The position numbers were made by a program, and so were the translations under genes. The notes under the pieces are model-generated. The model saw nothing but the letters and a program-made list of their open reading frames with translations, searched no databases and had not been told where the DNA came from. 64,000 nucleotides of DNA, taken from contig AP024674.1 in the NCBI GenBank assembly GCA_025998755.1, positions 310,001 through 374,000 of the forward strand, given 5' to 3'. Origin of the DNA: Armatimonadota bacterium. Lineage in GTDB: Bacteria; Armatimonadota; UBA5829; DSUL01. Shown in pieces: positions 40,795 through 47,371 of the stretch; the stretch's first letter is position 1; each line of letters starts with the position of its first letter.

Positions 40795-42528
40795 TTACGG
40801 GTGGGGTTCCGGGTGCAGCGCGAAGTCCACTTCCGCCCGGGTCGTCTGGCCACCGCTCAGGGTGAAGGATCCCTTCAGCTCTCCTCTTGTCAGGTTCTCC
40901 ACAATCTGCAGACCCAGGTTCCGGCTCTTCTGCGGGTCGAATCCCTCTGGCAGCGGCTGCCCGGTATTTTCCACGCAGATGCTTACCCGCTCGTCATCCG
41001 CCGAGATGACCACCCGCACCATTCCTTCGCCCGCAGTTCCCACGCCGTGCTCAAGCGCGTTCTGGATCAGCTCGTTCAGCACCAAAGCGACACTGGTGGC
41101 CCGGTGTGAGTCCAGCAGCAGCTCCGGTCCTTCCACGCCCACCGAGACCCGGTGCCCCTCCGGCAACCAGGTGGCCGCAACGTTCGAGAGGATATTGTCC
41201 GCCAACTTGCGCACGCTGACGGTGTCCAGATCCTCCCTGGAAAGCATATCGTGCACCACCGCGATAGAACGGATGCGGTTGATGCTTTCCAGAAGAGCGG
41301 TCTCCGCGCTATCCTGCTTCCCGTAGCGCACCTGAAGCCGCAGCAGACTGGCGACAGTCTGCAGGTTGTTCTTCACCCGGTGATGCATCTCCTGCAGGAT
41401 GGCCGACCGGATGTGCAGCTGGGAGTTCTCGATGGCGATGGCGGCATGCGTGGCCAGAGCCGAAAGCAGCGAGATCTCCTCATCCGTGAAACGGTGCGGC
41501 CTCGCGGTATAGCAGTTCAGCACTCCGATGGTCCGGTTCTGGATGACCATCGGCACGCAAACCAGCGAGCACAAACCTTCCTGCCGCGCGATATCCGGGT
41601 AGCGGTAGCCCGGGGTCCTGCGGACGTCCAGCACCTGCACGGGCTTGCCTTCGGCCACGGCGCGTCCCGCCAGACTCTCTCCCAGCTTCAGATTAGGTTT
41701 GGATATGTAAGCGCGGCTGCGGGAGGTGGTCGCCTTGATGACCAGCTCTTGCCGCTCCTCGTCCAGCAGCATCACCGAGCAGATGCTCAGGTTCATCCCT
41801 TCCGCCGTGACCGCCACGATGAACTGAAGGATCTCCTCCAGATAGTTGCTGGAAGCGATGGTGCGGCTGATCTCGGAAAGCGTGCTCAGCTGCGATGCGC
41901 GCCGCTGGATGCGGTCGAACTGCTCCGAGTTCTCGATGGCCCCGGCCACCTGGCTGGCGATGCTCTCCAGCAGCTCGATCTGGGCAGGGGTGTATTCGTG
42001 CGCCTTGTCCGTGCGCACATTGATCACCCCGATCAGTTCGGTGCGGCCCAGCAAAGGGACGCTCAGCATGGAGTGATAGCGATCCTGCTTCAGCTCCGGC
42101 ACCAGCTTGAAGCGCTCATCGCGGAACGCTTCGCTGTGCAGCGCCACGTGCTCCCGGGTCTTGGCCACCCAGCCCGTCACGCCTTCGCCCAGTTTCAGGC
42201 GGACCTTGCCCACGGCGCTCGATGCCGGGCTGCTGGCCGCCCGCAGCACCAGCTCGTCGCGTGTCTCGTTCAGGAGATAGATCAGGCAGAGGTCGGTCTC
42301 GGTGACCTGGACGATGGTCTCCGCCACCATCGAAAGCATCCGGGGGAGGTCCAGCAAGAAGCCCATGGCGTGCCCGGTGCGGCGAAGCGCGTCGGCCTCC
42401 AGTTCCTTCTCCTGCAGCCGCTTCTCCAGCTCGGCGACGCGCTCCCGGAGCGACTCCACCGCCTGCGCAGAGTGCGAATGCGGGTGGTGCGGTGGAATCT
42501 CATCGAACTGGGTCTTGCGCGTGGGCAT
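40795..42528 (-). CDS. GAF-domain sensor histidine kinase (HisKA_2 type)
   Basis: A 577-residue cytosolic kinase: short coiled coil 22-48, GAF domain 1 (about 60-200), GAF domain 2 (about 220-370), dimerisation/phosphoacceptor helix with HHRVKNNLQTVASLL (His of the HisKA_2 type), and HATPase (LVLNELIQNALEH, then SRNLGLQIVENLTRG). GAF domains may bind small ligands, heme or cyclic nucleotides. It lies 33 bases downstream of an ANTAR response regulator, its likely partner. HisKA_2 kinases paired with ANTAR regulators occur in RNA-binding antitermination systems. Confidence 0.92.
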   Translation of the reverse strand: MPTRKTQFDEIPPHHPHSHSAQAVESLRERVAELEKRLQEKELEADALRRTGHAMGFLLDLPRMLSMVAETIVQVTETDLCLIYLLNETRDELVLRAASSPASSAVGKVRLKLGEGVTGWVAKTREHVALHSEAFRDERFKLVPELKQDRYHSMLSVPLLGRTELIGVINVRTDKAHEYTPAQIELLESIASQVAGAIENSEQFDRIQRRASQLSTLSEISRTIASSNYLEEILQFIVAVTAEGMNLSICSVMLLDEERQELVIKATTSRSRAYISKPNLKLGESLAGRAVAEGKPVQVLDVRRTPGYRYPDIARQEGLCSLVCVPMVIQNRTIGVLNCYTARPHRFTDEEISLLSALATHAAIAIENSQLHIRSAILQEMHHRVKNNLQTVASLLRLQVRYGKQDSAETALLESINRIRSIAVVHDMLSREDLDTVSVRKLADNILSNVAATWLPEGHRVSVGVEGPELLLDSHRATSVALVLNELIQNALEHGVGTAGEGMVRVVISADDERVSICVENTGQPLPEGFDPQKSRNLGLQIVENLTRGELKGSFTLSGGQTTRAEVDFALHPEPHP

Positions 42529-42561
42529 AAGGTCGGGGGAGCCCGGATCAGGAAAGACCGC

Positions 42562-43137
42562 TCAGATCTGGCTGGCCAGGATGATGGCCTCCGCGATCTC
42601 CCGCATGGACTTCCGGGTGTTCATGCTCTGGGTCTGGATGCGCCGGAACGCCTCCGTCTCGGTGAGCCCGTGCTTCTCCATCAGGATGCCCTTGGCCCGT
42701 TCCACGGCCTTGCGGGTCTCCAGACGGTCTTCCAGATCTTGCACCTGCTCCTGCAGGGCCTTCATCTGCTCGAACCGGGCACAGGCCACCTCCATAGCCG
42801 GGTGCAGGTCCGCCTCCTGGAACGGCTTCACCAGATACCCGAACACCCCCGCTTCTTTCGCCCGTGCAATCAGTTCGGGCTCGCTGTAGGCGGTCAGTAG
42901 CACCACCGGGGCGATGCCCTCCTCGGTGATGGCCTTTGCCGCGTCCAGCCCGTCCATCACCGGCATCTTGATGTCCAGGATCGCGATGTCCGGTTTCAGG
43001 GTCCGAGCCAAATTCAGGGCGGTCTCTCCATCGCCCGCCTCTCCGACCACGGTGTGCCCGCCCGCCTCCAGGGTCTTGCGGAGGTCCAGGCGGATGATGG
43101 ATTCGTCGTCTGCGATGATGACGCGCATGGGATGCAT
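42562..43137 (-). CDS. ANTAR-domain response regulator
   Basis: A 191-residue regulator: receiver domain with Asp10-Asp11, phosphoacceptor Asp55 (LDIKMP), conserved Lys104 (YLVKPF), a short coiled coil, and a C-terminal ANTAR domain (AVERAKGILMEKHGLTETEA) that binds paired stem-loops in RNA leaders and prevents termination. Target leaders were not identified. It is first in the unit with the kinase and has a clear promoter at 43213-43240. Confidence 0.95.
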   Translation of the reverse strand: MHPMRVIIADDESIIRLDLRKTLEAGGHTVVGEAGDGETALNLARTLKPDIAILDIKMPVMDGLDAAKAITEEGIAPVVLLTAYSEPELIARAKEAGVFGYLVKPFQEADLHPAMEVACARFEQMKALQEQVQDLEDRLETRKAVERAKGILMEKHGLTETEAFRRIQTQSMNTRKSMREIAEAIILASQI

Positions 43138-43260: not shown

Positions 43261-44064
43261 ATGCGCTCTAGACCCGATTCTTCTGGCTGGCTGATCGTCT
43301 TCACGGCCCTGTTCGTGGCTCTGTGGGGACTTTCGCCCCGCCTGGCAGGAATCGTTGGAGAAAGCCCGCGTGCCTTTCTTGCCGCGCAGCTTGTTCTGAC
43401 CGTGTTCTGGGTGGGTATTACCATCGGGATCGTGCGGCATATAGCCGGTCTGCGGCTAAGTTTCTGGGGCCGTGCAGTGGCGTTCGCCATCAGCGCGACA
43501 TTGTTGGTGGTGAGCGTCCAGCTCCGTCTCTGGCCGCCGCTTGCCAACCTGTGGCTCATCTACGGCGCCGCGTTCCTGGGATGTATTGTGTCGGTCATCT
43601 TCCGCGAACCGAACATCCTGCTTCCGGTGGCGCTCATGTCGCCCCTCGTAGACTTCTGGACTGTATCGGCCGGGCCAGTAAGGCGGGTGCTGGAGCATCG
43701 TCCCGAGGTGCTGGATGTGGTGGCTGCCGGTGTGCCGGCGGCCGGGCAGCTTGCGCCCCTGGCTTTCGTGGGGCTGGGAGACTTCATGTTCATGGCCATG
43801 TTCCTGGCCGCCGCCGACCGCCTGCGGATGAACTCGCGCCGGACCGCCGTGGCGTTTTTTGTGCTGGTCTCTATGGCGATGATTCTGGTGGTCTTCTGGA
43901 GCGGGTTCGCCGGGGTGGGGGTTCCCGGCATGGTCGTCATCGGGCTGGGATTCGTCGCCGCCAACCTGCGCCATTTCCGCCTGTCCCGGCAGGAGGCGCT
44001 CATCACGAGCGGACTGGTGATCGCCGTCGCCATCCTGGTGGCTGTCATCGTTCGGGTCCGCTAG
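43261..44064 (+). CDS. Multi-pass membrane protein with presenilin-like GxGD features
   Basis: A 267-residue protein of about eight or nine membrane helices. Three features recall presenilin/signal peptide peptidase (GxGD aspartyl intramembrane proteases): an intramembrane Asp131 (LMSPLVDFWTVSAGP), the motif GLGDFMFMAMFL with Asp174 (the second catalytic Asp), and a Pro-containing motif in a later helix (GVGVPGMVVIGLG, Pro222) where presenilin has PAL. Spacing of the Asp residues is 43. Start ATG at 43261, no strong ribosome site. The call is by pattern only; no bacterial family is named and activity is unproved. It may be another transporter-like membrane protein. Confidence 0.6.
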   Translation: MRSRPDSSGWLIVFTALFVALWGLSPRLAGIVGESPRAFLAAQLVLTVFWVGITIGIVRHIAGLRLSFWGRAVAFAISATLLVVSVQLRLWPPLANLWLIYGAAFLGCIVSVIFREPNILLPVALMSPLVDFWTVSAGPVRRVLEHRPEVLDVVAAGVPAAGQLAPLAFVGLGDFMFMAMFLAAADRLRMNSRRTAVAFFVLVSMAMILVVFWSGFAGVGVPGMVVIGLGFVAANLRHFRLSRQEALITSGLVIAVAILVAVIVRVR

Positions 44065-44089: not shown

Positions 44090-46621
44090 ATGTCGTCCGT
44101 GAATACAAGACAGGAATCAACCGTGGTGAAATACGACTTCCGGTCCATTGAGAAGCGTTGGCAGGAGCGCTGGCGGGCCGATGACCTGTTCCGGACGCCG
44201 GAGGACCGGTCTCGCCCGAAGTTCTACGGGCTGGATTTCTTCCCGTATCCATCGGGCGACGGCCTTTCGGTCGGGCACTGCAGGAACTACGTACCCAGCG
44301 ACGTCTTCTGCCGCTACCGACGGATGCGCGGAGACAATGTCCTGCATCCCATGGGGTGGGATGCCTTCGGTCTTCCAGCCGAGAACGAAGCCATCCGCCG
44401 CAAGTCCCATCCGAAGAAGACCGTGCCGCAGTATGTGGCCAACTACAAGCGCCAGATGAATCTGCTGGGCCTGTCTTACGACTGGTCGCGGGAGATCAAC
44501 TCCAGCGAGCCGGAATACTATCGCTGGACTCAGTGGTTCTTCCTGTTGCTCTACCGGCGCGGGCTGGCGTACCGGTCGTCGGCCCCCGCCAACTGGTGTC
44601 CCAGCTGCGCCACAGTTCTGGCCAACGAGGAGGTGCACGACGGAGCCTGCTGGCGCTGCGGCTCGGAAATCGAAAAGAAAGATCTGCCGCAGTGGTTCTT
44701 CCGCATCACGCAGTACGCAGACCGCCTATTGGAGGATCTGAAACTGGTGGACTGGCCCGAGTCCATCAAGCTGATGCAGACCAACTGGATCGGGCGCAGC
44801 GTTGGGGTGGAGTTCGAAATGCCCATCAAGGGGCACGAGGCCTCGATGCGCGTGTTCACCACCCGTGTGGATACAGTCTTCGGCGTTTCCTTCGCGGTTC
44901 TGGCCCCGGAGCATCCGCTGGTTGCGCAGATCACCACGCCCGACCGCCGGGCGGAGGTGGAGGAATACGTCCGCAAAAGCCGCCGGATCTCCGAGATAGA
45001 CCGCCTGTCTACCGAGCGGGAGCGCGATGGGTGCTTCACGGGAGCCTATGCCATCAATCCGGTCAACGGGCAGGAGGTGCCCATTTATGTGGCCGATTAC
45101 GTTCTGCTCAGCTACGGGACGGGCGCGATCATGGCGGTTCCCGCGCACGATACCCGCGACTTTGACTTCGCCCGGCGCTATGGCCTTCCCGCTCCGGTGG
45201 TCATCGCGCCGGACGGTTGGGACGGCCAGCCGCTGAAGGAGGCGCACACGGGCGAGGGCACGATGGTGAACTCGGGGCAGTTCTCCGGGATGCGCAACAC
45301 GGAGGGCGCTGAGGCCATCGCGGACTGGATGCAGGAACAGGGAATCGGAGAGCGCCGCGTGAACTACCGCCTGCGGGACTGGCTCATCTCCCGTCAGCGC
45401 TACTGGGGAGCGCCGATCCCTATCGTGCACTGTCCCGCCTGCGGAGAGGTGCCGGTGCCGGAGGAGCAGTTACCCGTCCTGCTGCCCGATGTCGAAAATT
45501 ACGAGCCCCCCGGCGACGGGCGTTCGCCTCTGGCCATCATACCGGAGTTTGTGAACACTTCCTGTCCGGCGTGCGGCGGTCCGGCTGAGCGGGAGACGGA
45601 CACCATGGGCGGCTTCGCCTGCTCCAGCTGGTACTTCCTTAGGTTTGCCGATCCTCACAACGATTGCGCCCCTTTCGACCGGGACAAAGTGGAGTACTGG
45701 CTGCCCGTGGATCTGTATGTCGGCGGAGCTGAGCATGCCGTCATGCACCTGCTGTATGCCCGGTTCTGGACGAAGGTGATGTACGATGCCGGGCTTGTGC
45801 CGTTTGTGGAGCCTTTCACCCGGCTGAAGAACCAGGGCATGCTCCTTGCACCGGACCCCAAGAATCCGGGCGTGCTGGTCAAGATGTCCAAGTCCAAGTT
45901 CAACGTCGTCACGCCCGACGAAATGGCGGAGAAGTACGGCGCGGACGCCCTGCGGGTCTATGAGCTTTTTGTCGCGCCGTTCGAAGATACGGTGCCTTGG
46001 AGTGAGGATGGCATCAACGGGTGCTGGAGGTTTCTGAACCGGGTCTACCGCGTGGTGGCCGAGCGGCCTGGCAGTTTCGTGCCGGACTGGCGGTCAACCG
46101 TCCGGCAGGAGACCGTCAGCGATGAGGCGAAAGCCCTGGCGCGCAAGACGCACCAGACCATCGCGAAGGTCACCAAGGATATCGAAGACTTCGCCTTCAA
46201 CACGGCGGTCGCCGCCCTGATGGAGTTGACCAACCAGATCTATGACTTTGTCAACGCCAAGGACGGTCTGCATTATCCGTGCCCCGTATGGAGCGAGGCC
46301 GTGGAGACGCTCATCCTGCTTCTGGCCCCGATGGCTCCTCATCTGGCGGACGAGCTGTGGCAGATGATCGGCCGGGAGGGCTACACCTATTCCGCACCGT
46401 GGCCTGAGGCCGATCCCGACGTGGCCAGGGCGGATGTGCTGACCATCGTCGTGCAGGTGAACGGCAAAGTTAGGGACAAGATATCCGTGGACGCGGGAAC
46501 GAGCCAGGCCGAGCTCGAGCGGTTGGCGCTGGAGAGTCCCAAGGTGCAGGGAGCCCTTCAGGGCAGGCCGGCGCGTAAGGTCATCGTGGTGCCGGGACGG
46601 TTGGTGAACGTGGTGGGCTGA
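44090..46621 (+). CDS. leuS: Leucyl-tRNA synthetase
   Basis: An 843-residue class I synthetase that charges tRNA-Leu. Seen: the HIGH-region FPYPSGDGLSVGH (the first His is Ser), HPMGWDAFGLPAENEA, an editing (CP1) domain with CFTGAYAINPVNG and GTGAIMAVPAHDTRD, the KMSKS loop (MSKSKFNVV), anticodon-binding and C-terminal domains. Two Cys pairs in CPSCATV and CWRCGSE and another pair (CPACG) suggest zinc knuckles. ATG at 44090 is used; a GTG at 44123 has a better-placed AGGA and would give a protein starting nearer the first conserved residues. Housekeeping gene. A ComEA-like gene follows. Confidence 0.95.
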   Translation: MSSVNTRQESTVVKYDFRSIEKRWQERWRADDLFRTPEDRSRPKFYGLDFFPYPSGDGLSVGHCRNYVPSDVFCRYRRMRGDNVLHPMGWDAFGLPAENEAIRRKSHPKKTVPQYVANYKRQMNLLGLSYDWSREINSSEPEYYRWTQWFFLLLYRRGLAYRSSAPANWCPSCATVLANEEVHDGACWRCGSEIEKKDLPQWFFRITQYADRLLEDLKLVDWPESIKLMQTNWIGRSVGVEFEMPIKGHEASMRVFTTRVDTVFGVSFAVLAPEHPLVAQITTPDRRAEVEEYVRKSRRISEIDRLSTERERDGCFTGAYAINPVNGQEVPIYVADYVLLSYGTGAIMAVPAHDTRDFDFARRYGLPAPVVIAPDGWDGQPLKEAHTGEGTMVNSGQFSGMRNTEGAEAIADWMQEQGIGERRVNYRLRDWLISRQRYWGAPIPIVHCPACGEVPVPEEQLPVLLPDVENYEPPGDGRSPLAIIPEFVNTSCPACGGPAERETDTMGGFACSSWYFLRFADPHNDCAPFDRDKVEYWLPVDLYVGGAEHAVMHLLYARFWTKVMYDAGLVPFVEPFTRLKNQGMLLAPDPKNPGVLVKMSKSKFNVVTPDEMAEKYGADALRVYELFVAPFEDTVPWSEDGINGCWRFLNRVYRVVAERPGSFVPDWRSTVRQETVSDEAKALARKTHQTIAKVTKDIEDFAFNTAVAALMELTNQIYDFVNAKDGLHYPCPVWSEAVETLILLLAPMAPHLADELWQMIGREGYTYSAPWPEADPDVARADVLTIVVQVNGKVRDKISVDAGTSQAELERLALESPKVQGALQGRPARKVIVVPGRLVNVVG

Positions 46622-46666: not shown

Positions 46667-47371
46667 GTGGACGAAAGATCGCAGCGTCAGAAGCTTGCGG
46701 TGCTGGCGATTGTGGCTCTTGGAGCGCTGGCTCTGGTCGTGGGAGCGTGGACCCGCAGAGACGAGGTCGGTGAAGGTCCCCGGATCCAGATCATTGAGCC
46801 AGATGGCGGTGCGCCAGGCGGGTTGGATGATTTTTCCGTGAGCGCTTCTTCGGAAGCGCTCCGCGCAACGCCTGAGGAGCAGGCGCCTTCCGAGGTGGTG
46901 GTTCACGTTTGCGGTCGTGTGGAGAAGCCGGGTGTTTATACCCTGCCCCCGGGAGCGCGCATCAAGGATGCCATCAAATTGGCGGGAGGGGCGAAGCCGG
47001 ACGCGGATCTCGAGGCGGTGAATCTGGCCGCCCGGGCCGAGGATGGTCAACAGATCTATCTTCCGAAAGTGGGTGCGGTCCCCGCTCCCGCGCCGCCTGG
47101 CCGGCACGACCCGGCGGCTTCGCGGCCGAGACGTGCCGCTTCCGCCGTCCGGGTGCCGAAAAGCGCCTCCGCCATCGGACCGGTGAACATCAACACGGCC
47201 GGGCCCGAAGAGCTGGATCGCCTGCCGGGCGTCGGACCTGCCACCGCCGCGAAGATCATCGAATACCGCCGCGCCATTGGTGGGTTCACTAGGCCGGAGG
47301 ATCTGCTGGGAGTGCCCGGCATCGGAGAGAAAAAGTTCGCTCAGATGAAACCCTACGTGGTGGTCCGCTGA
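46667..47371 (+). CDS. ComEA-like SLBB/helix-hairpin-helix protein
   Basis: A 234-residue protein: N-terminal anchor (LAVLAIVALGALALVVGAW, 10-28), a SLBB domain (VVVHVCGRVEKPGVYTLPPG, about 76-135), a Pro/Ala/Arg-rich linker, and two helix-hairpin-helix motifs (LDRLPGVGPATAAKI; LLGVPGIGEKKFAQM). It resembles ComEA, the surface receptor that draws in DNA during natural transformation. Start is GTG at 46667. Whether the organism is competent cannot be told from this gene alone. FolP follows 22 bases later. Confidence 0.88.
   Translation: MDERSQRQKLAVLAIVALGALALVVGAWTRRDEVGEGPRIQIIEPDGGAPGGLDDFSVSASSEALRATPEEQAPSEVVVHVCGRVEKPGVYTLPPGARIKDAIKLAGGAKPDADLEAVNLAARAEDGQQIYLPKVGAVPAPAPPGRHDPAASRPRRAASAVRVPKSASAIGPVNINTAGPEELDRLPGVGPATAAKIIEYRRAIGGFTRPEDLLGVPGIGEKKFAQMKPYVVVR

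Follow-up and report, generated by a model that had tools for sequence, protein, structure and literature searches.

The window, i.e. the whole 64,000-nucleotide stretch of Armatimonadota DNA analysed here, contains a gene (43261..44064, + strand, as are all its features below) for a presenilin-like membrane protein of 267 amino acids with nine predicted helices. We consider it most likely, with a probability of roughly 0.8, that this protein represents a divergent, unannotated bacterial family of the presenilin/SPP (GxGD diaspartyl) superfamily and acts as an intramembrane aspartyl protease. Presenilin and SPP belong to the enzyme class behind the amyloid of Alzheimer's disease, and those presenilin/SPP enzymes that are well described come from eukaryotes or archaea. 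New here is a family without a Pfam or NCBIfam name, of which an unannotated copy is present in almost all members of the Armatimonadota. Homologs were detected in 269 of the 291 genomes of the phylum searched (186 of 194 among those of good quality), normally with one gene per genome, and scans of the family proteins against Pfam, NCBIfam and PHROGs gave no usable match. A single pass through a public contig collection with narrow peptide patterns yielded eight loci, all titled Armatimonadetes or Armatimonadota, a restriction that applies to those patterns. No family homologs were found in the plasmids and phages searched, and a literature search for a link between presenilin and Armatimonadota returned no paper.

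The open reading frame in the window is a real gene under purifying selection, since a relative from the same genus encodes a protein 95% identical to the window protein, with a dN/dS of about 0.1 (0.028/0.279). Of the 68 changes, 51 fall on third positions. The ATG at 43261 agrees better with the starts of the homologs than an in-frame GTG upstream, and the frame ends with a TAG at 44062-44064.

In the translation, the three motifs described in the earlier note sit where they had been placed: Asp131 in LVDFWTVSAGP, Asp174 in GLGDFMFM and Pro222 in GVPGMVVIG. Asp131 (codon 43651..43653), the proposed first catalytic aspartate, had been regarded as a membrane residue and lies indeed within predicted TM5 (aa 117-136, 43609..43668). 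The proposed second catalytic aspartate, Asp174 (codon 43780-43782), closes the GLGD motif (aa 171-174, 43771..43782) and stands at the start of a helix, because predicted TM6 (aa 172-187, 43774..43821) begins at residue 172. An alignment of 90 members, which cover most of the sampled families, was extended by six divergent ones. In all 96 proteins G107, D131, G171 and D174 are invariant, so that the suggested conservation check turned out in favour of both aspartates. Judged from this alignment, the Asp131 and GxGD motifs of the window protein are not a product of chance, since D131, G171 and D174 are retained in members from most sampled families. The segment equivalent to PAL is mostly P(A/G)L, with P in 92 and L at the third position in 91 of the 96 members. 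It lies at the start of the second helix after the GxGD helix, as expected of a member of the superfamily. The earlier note had recognised the proline of this segment correctly, and Pro222 (codon 43924-43926) aligns to PAL, but the window protein reads PGM here (43924..43932), a variant of the family consensus PAL/PGL. Several of the most divergent members (L133, L155, L146-L148) carry LPALPF, which is nearest to LPALPI of presenilin. Further conserved residues are N235 (91/96) and E245 (93/96), both in a positively charged, presumably cytoplasmic NxRxFxLxRxE loop (43963..43995). The tyrosine in front of the first aspartate (YD) of presenilin/SPP is absent: Asp131 is preceded by V in the window protein and by L, I or other small or hydrophobic residues in the homologs.

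These conservation data bear on the possibility that the family has the presenilin/SPP fold without being a protease, and serves to bind or chaperone membrane segments or has another function, with structural or ion-binding aspartates. The third position of GxGD (G173) is G in 67 of the 96 members and A in the other 29 (GxAD), the PAL position varies as described, and a helix order shifted relative to presenilin may change the active site, protease activity being a prediction. A mere scaffold would be expected to lose the aspartates in some lineages, whereas both of them and G171 are invariant throughout the phylum. We therefore regard a non-proteolytic role as unlikely, and the family protein as probably a protease according to its sequences and models.

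At the sequence level the relationship to presenilin/SPP is distant. The best phmmer match of the window protein among PDB sequences is the CTF of presenilin-1 (PS1), which bears out the presenilin resemblance claimed before, though weakly (E=0.17). The divergent member L133 matches the same PS1 CTF, likewise with E=0.17, and GxGD is placed on GxGD and PAL on PAL. For calibration, human SPP was compared with this PS1 chain by phmmer and gave E=0.12. As human SPP is an accepted relative, a value of about 0.17 is what true members at such a distance would be expected to show. Comparison of the family profile with a profile of SPP, SPPL2a and PS1 by hhalign resulted in a probability of 81.6 and a score of 47 over 106 columns. 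In this alignment D131 pairs with the aspartate of YD, the GxGD motifs coincide and P(G/A)L matches PAL. In 198 column shuffles the score reached at most 19.6 and the probability at most 0.7, and the reversed profile scored 13.2. With the divergent members added the probability was 86.2, and the divergent subfamily B alone gave 69.6 against PS1. These probabilities refer to one pairwise comparison each and not to a database search, and the target profile consisted of three human sequences only. The PS1 sequence used is identical to 5a63_B; the SPP segment is one that we take to be correct from its match to SPPL2a. Archaeal PSH sequences were sought in haloarchaeal plasmids and viral SPP sequences were sought for the target profile; neither search returned any.

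No sequence method reached its cut-off for presenilin/SPP at database level. A profile of 19 members searched against the PDB missed presenilin and gave only a spurious match to a nicotinic receptor. In whole-genome searches with PF01080 and PF04258 no genome contained a match above the curated cut-off, and the same was true for PF06550 in the 41 genomes searched. Below threshold, four PF01080 matches were located inside the family gene (G282, G028, G035, G281), all starting from profile position 333-334, as well as two PF04258 matches (G234, G036), both covering profile positions 140-239. PF06550 gave two such matches, one in register (G036) and one out of register (G033). As far as can be judged from sequence, these matches are far above chance, since the family gene makes up only about one ten-thousandth of the coding capacity of a genome by our estimate. 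The family is thus a relative at superfamily level, outside the presenilin, SPP and archaeal PSH families as curated in Pfam.

AlphaFold models were calculated with nine sequences each for the window protein (pLDDT 85, pTM 0.85) and for L126 (pLDDT 87, pTM 0.84), a member with PAL. Both contain nine long helices, a pair of short ones behind the helix bearing D131, a pair of strands and a next helix opened by GxGD. In the window protein TM1-TM4 (aa 7-32, 36-62, 68-87 and 92-111; 43279..43593) precede TM5; the short helices (aa 139-154) and the first strand (aa 155-157) are encoded at 43675..43731, and the second strand (aa 169-171, 43765..43773) is located just before GxGD. TM6 is followed by predicted TM7 (aa 192-212, 43834..43896), the predicted PAL helix TM8 (aa 223-234, 43927..43962) and TM9 (aa 243-266, 43987..44058), an extra C-terminal helix without a counterpart behind PAL in presenilin. 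D131 and D174 are placed at the same end of their respective helices in the model.

We searched 350,542 PDB chains with both models using Foldseek. For the window model the top 10 matches were all presenilin-1 (E 2.7e-3 to 3e-2, probability 1.00), followed by SPPL2a at rank 11. The top 14 matches of the L126 model consisted of PS1, SPPL2a and archaeal mmPSH 4hyg, again with PS1 in first place. The structural comparison proposed in the earlier note hence ranked presenilin-1 first for two members of the family, and another known family was not matched with good probability, the weak phmmer matches being to presenilin. Matches at lower ranks were mostly receptors and channels of low probability. 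In a viral library, a viral SPP was the match with the highest probability (0.77). The TM-scores are modest (0.40-0.47) and the overall rmsd is large, so that the superposition is only partial and part of the chain is either arranged differently or mis-modelled.

Such a local instead of global superposition, together with sequence matches that are all below threshold, is what one would expect of an unrelated polytopic protein, e.g. a transporter or a lipid enzyme, in which GxGD and a second membrane aspartate arose independently. Yet presenilin/SPP structures head the list as a block for two independent models, and three separate motifs are in register in a profile alignment far beyond the shuffles. 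This explanation is very unlikely in our opinion, and the family very probably has the presenilin fold.

Presenilin carries its catalytic aspartates on TM6 and TM7 and PAL in TM9, the last of its nine helices. In both models of the family the catalytic helices are instead TM5, TM6 and TM8, with one helix following PAL, so that the TM6/TM7/TM9 numbering does not apply. This extra C-terminal helix could, in the models, stand in for TM1 of presenilin, which would amount to a permutation. The family shares with presenilin-1 (PF01080) two aspartates on adjacent helices, the GxGDFxF stretch and a spacing of one helix between the helices of GxGD and PAL; presenilin-1 is also the top structural match. 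It differs by lacking the tyrosine of YD and the long loop, by its position below the Pfam cut-off, by the numbering of its catalytic helices with the additional helix behind PAL, and by a presumably inverted orientation of the catalytic helices. Both models contain a helix-strand-strand element leading into GxGD. In PS1, TM6a, beta1 and beta2 build a hybrid sheet with the bound substrate (PMC7248309), and the modelled element of the family appears to parallel them.

SPP and SPPL proteins (PF04258) resemble the family in their orientation as we infer it, with the active face outside and a cytoplasmic end after the PAL helix, and the profile alignment runs through D, GxGD and PAL. Differences are the identity of only about 15%, the missing tyrosine of YD, an N-terminus that is probably inside, and the score below the Pfam cut-off. 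With the archaeal MCMJR1/mmPSH (PF06550) the family has in common that a prokaryotic single chain of similar size manages without partner subunits, and mmPSH 4hyg is among the top structural matches of the L126 model. In contrast to these archaeal proteins, the helix count around the active site is different, and PF06550 remained below its cut-off in the genomes mentioned above.

Bacteria possess other GxGD proteases, too, the type IV prepilin peptidases (A24/FlaK), which are polytopic diaspartyl membrane proteases (PMC2947513). A membership of our family in A24 is nevertheless of negligible probability, and we rejected it: no member matches PF01478, a PAL segment is present, no A24 enzymes occur among the Foldseek matches listed, and separate A24 genes are present in the genomes, with a clear A24 enzyme at G000:C1:637071 in that of the window.

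Loops 2-3, 4-5, 6-7 and 8-9 are rich in positive charge, which loops 1-2 and 7-8 lack; in the longer loops 3-4 and 5-6 the signal is less clear. This pattern fits a topology with the N-terminus inside and the C-terminus outside, which would place the PAL segment as well as the two aspartates close to the outer face. The same orientation fits a fusion observed in some genomes of one family, where the domain follows a secreted carboxypeptidase-regulatory-like domain (Pfam E 4e-6, below cut-off) and an extra helix. SPP has the opposite orientation to presenilin and cuts type II segments (PMC7768045). As its catalytic helices are presumably oriented as in SPP and not as in presenilin, we infer that the family protein may be an intramembrane aspartyl protease that faces outward and acts on segments with the N-terminus inside, such as signal peptides and anchors.

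In the mechanism we propose, a water molecule close to the outer membrane face would be activated by the pair of aspartates, with Asp131 located where TM5 ends and Asp174 where TM6 starts. The unwound substrate segment would be bound as an added beta-strand by P(A/G)L of TM8 together with the short helix-strand-strand element that precedes GxGD. Preferred substrates would be membrane segments with their N-terminus inside, e.g. leftover signal peptides and single-pass anchors. Clearance of signal peptides would not depend on the family protein, since SppA (S49) is encoded in the same genome. S49 peptidases are present in 29 of 31 genomes, and a role of the family as a replacement for SppA was rejected for this reason.

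A more specific reading, to which we give somewhat less than an even chance, sees in the family a bacterial branch of the superfamily belonging to the core of the Armatimonadota. Its catalytic core would be situated one helix earlier and an extra helix would follow PAL, resulting in a rearranged, possibly permuted set of nine helices with presenilin-like termini and SPP-like orientation. Such a branch would be an independent witness to a pre-eukaryotic origin of the enzyme class. The literature has raised the question whether presenilin and SPP share an ancestry or arose by convergence (PMC2947513), and the bacterial family would bear on it. A small, subunit-free bacterial version in nearly all genomes of a phylum would be a new model for the mechanism of gamma-secretase and SPP, and the family points to a predicted, so far unrecognised system of intramembrane proteolysis in bacteria.

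PALPF and GVGDFVF occur in a paralogous second subfamily (L133 1013-1873 (+), L155, L158), which is nearer to presenilin in sequence, and both subfamilies are present in G291 and G031. In the fusion proteins L146, L147 and L148 (G054, G041 and G245, one family) the paralog is part of a protein of more than 1000 amino acids. An apparent signal peptide, the carboxypeptidase-regulatory-like domain, the extra helix and the presenilin-like domain with LPALPF are followed there by a large C-terminal part that looks by eye like a degenerate alpha/beta hydrolase and has no Pfam match. Two family genes are arranged in tandem in G077 (L072 3738-5618 (+)). In the single-contig genome G047 the gene is broken up, with two frames that overlap (L075 3802-4781 (-)), which reflects a frameshift, a pseudogene or a sequencing error.

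Directly downstream of the gene, leuS (44090..46621, +, Pfam) encodes leucyl-tRNA synthetase. Of 90 loci, about 30 from many families show leuS in this position and in the same orientation. The arrangement points to an ancient operon that includes a housekeeping gene and has little bearing on function. The earlier note had emphasised a nearby RNA-binding regulator. The divergent upstream neighbour (42562..43137, -) is a real ANTAR response regulator (Pfam Response_reg and ANTAR), but it is transcribed divergently, and elsewhere leuS is the most frequent neighbour. Together with the GAF/HisKA_2 histidine kinase beside it, this regulator forms an apparent RNA-binding antitermination two-component pair (window 40795-43137, -). 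Between leuS and folP the window encodes a ComEA-like protein with SLBB and helix-hairpin-helix domains (46667-47371, +). In 13 f16 loci, a gene for a family-4 glycosyltransferase directly adjoins the family gene; in L095 (4346-5677 (-)) it is located upstream with a slight overlap.
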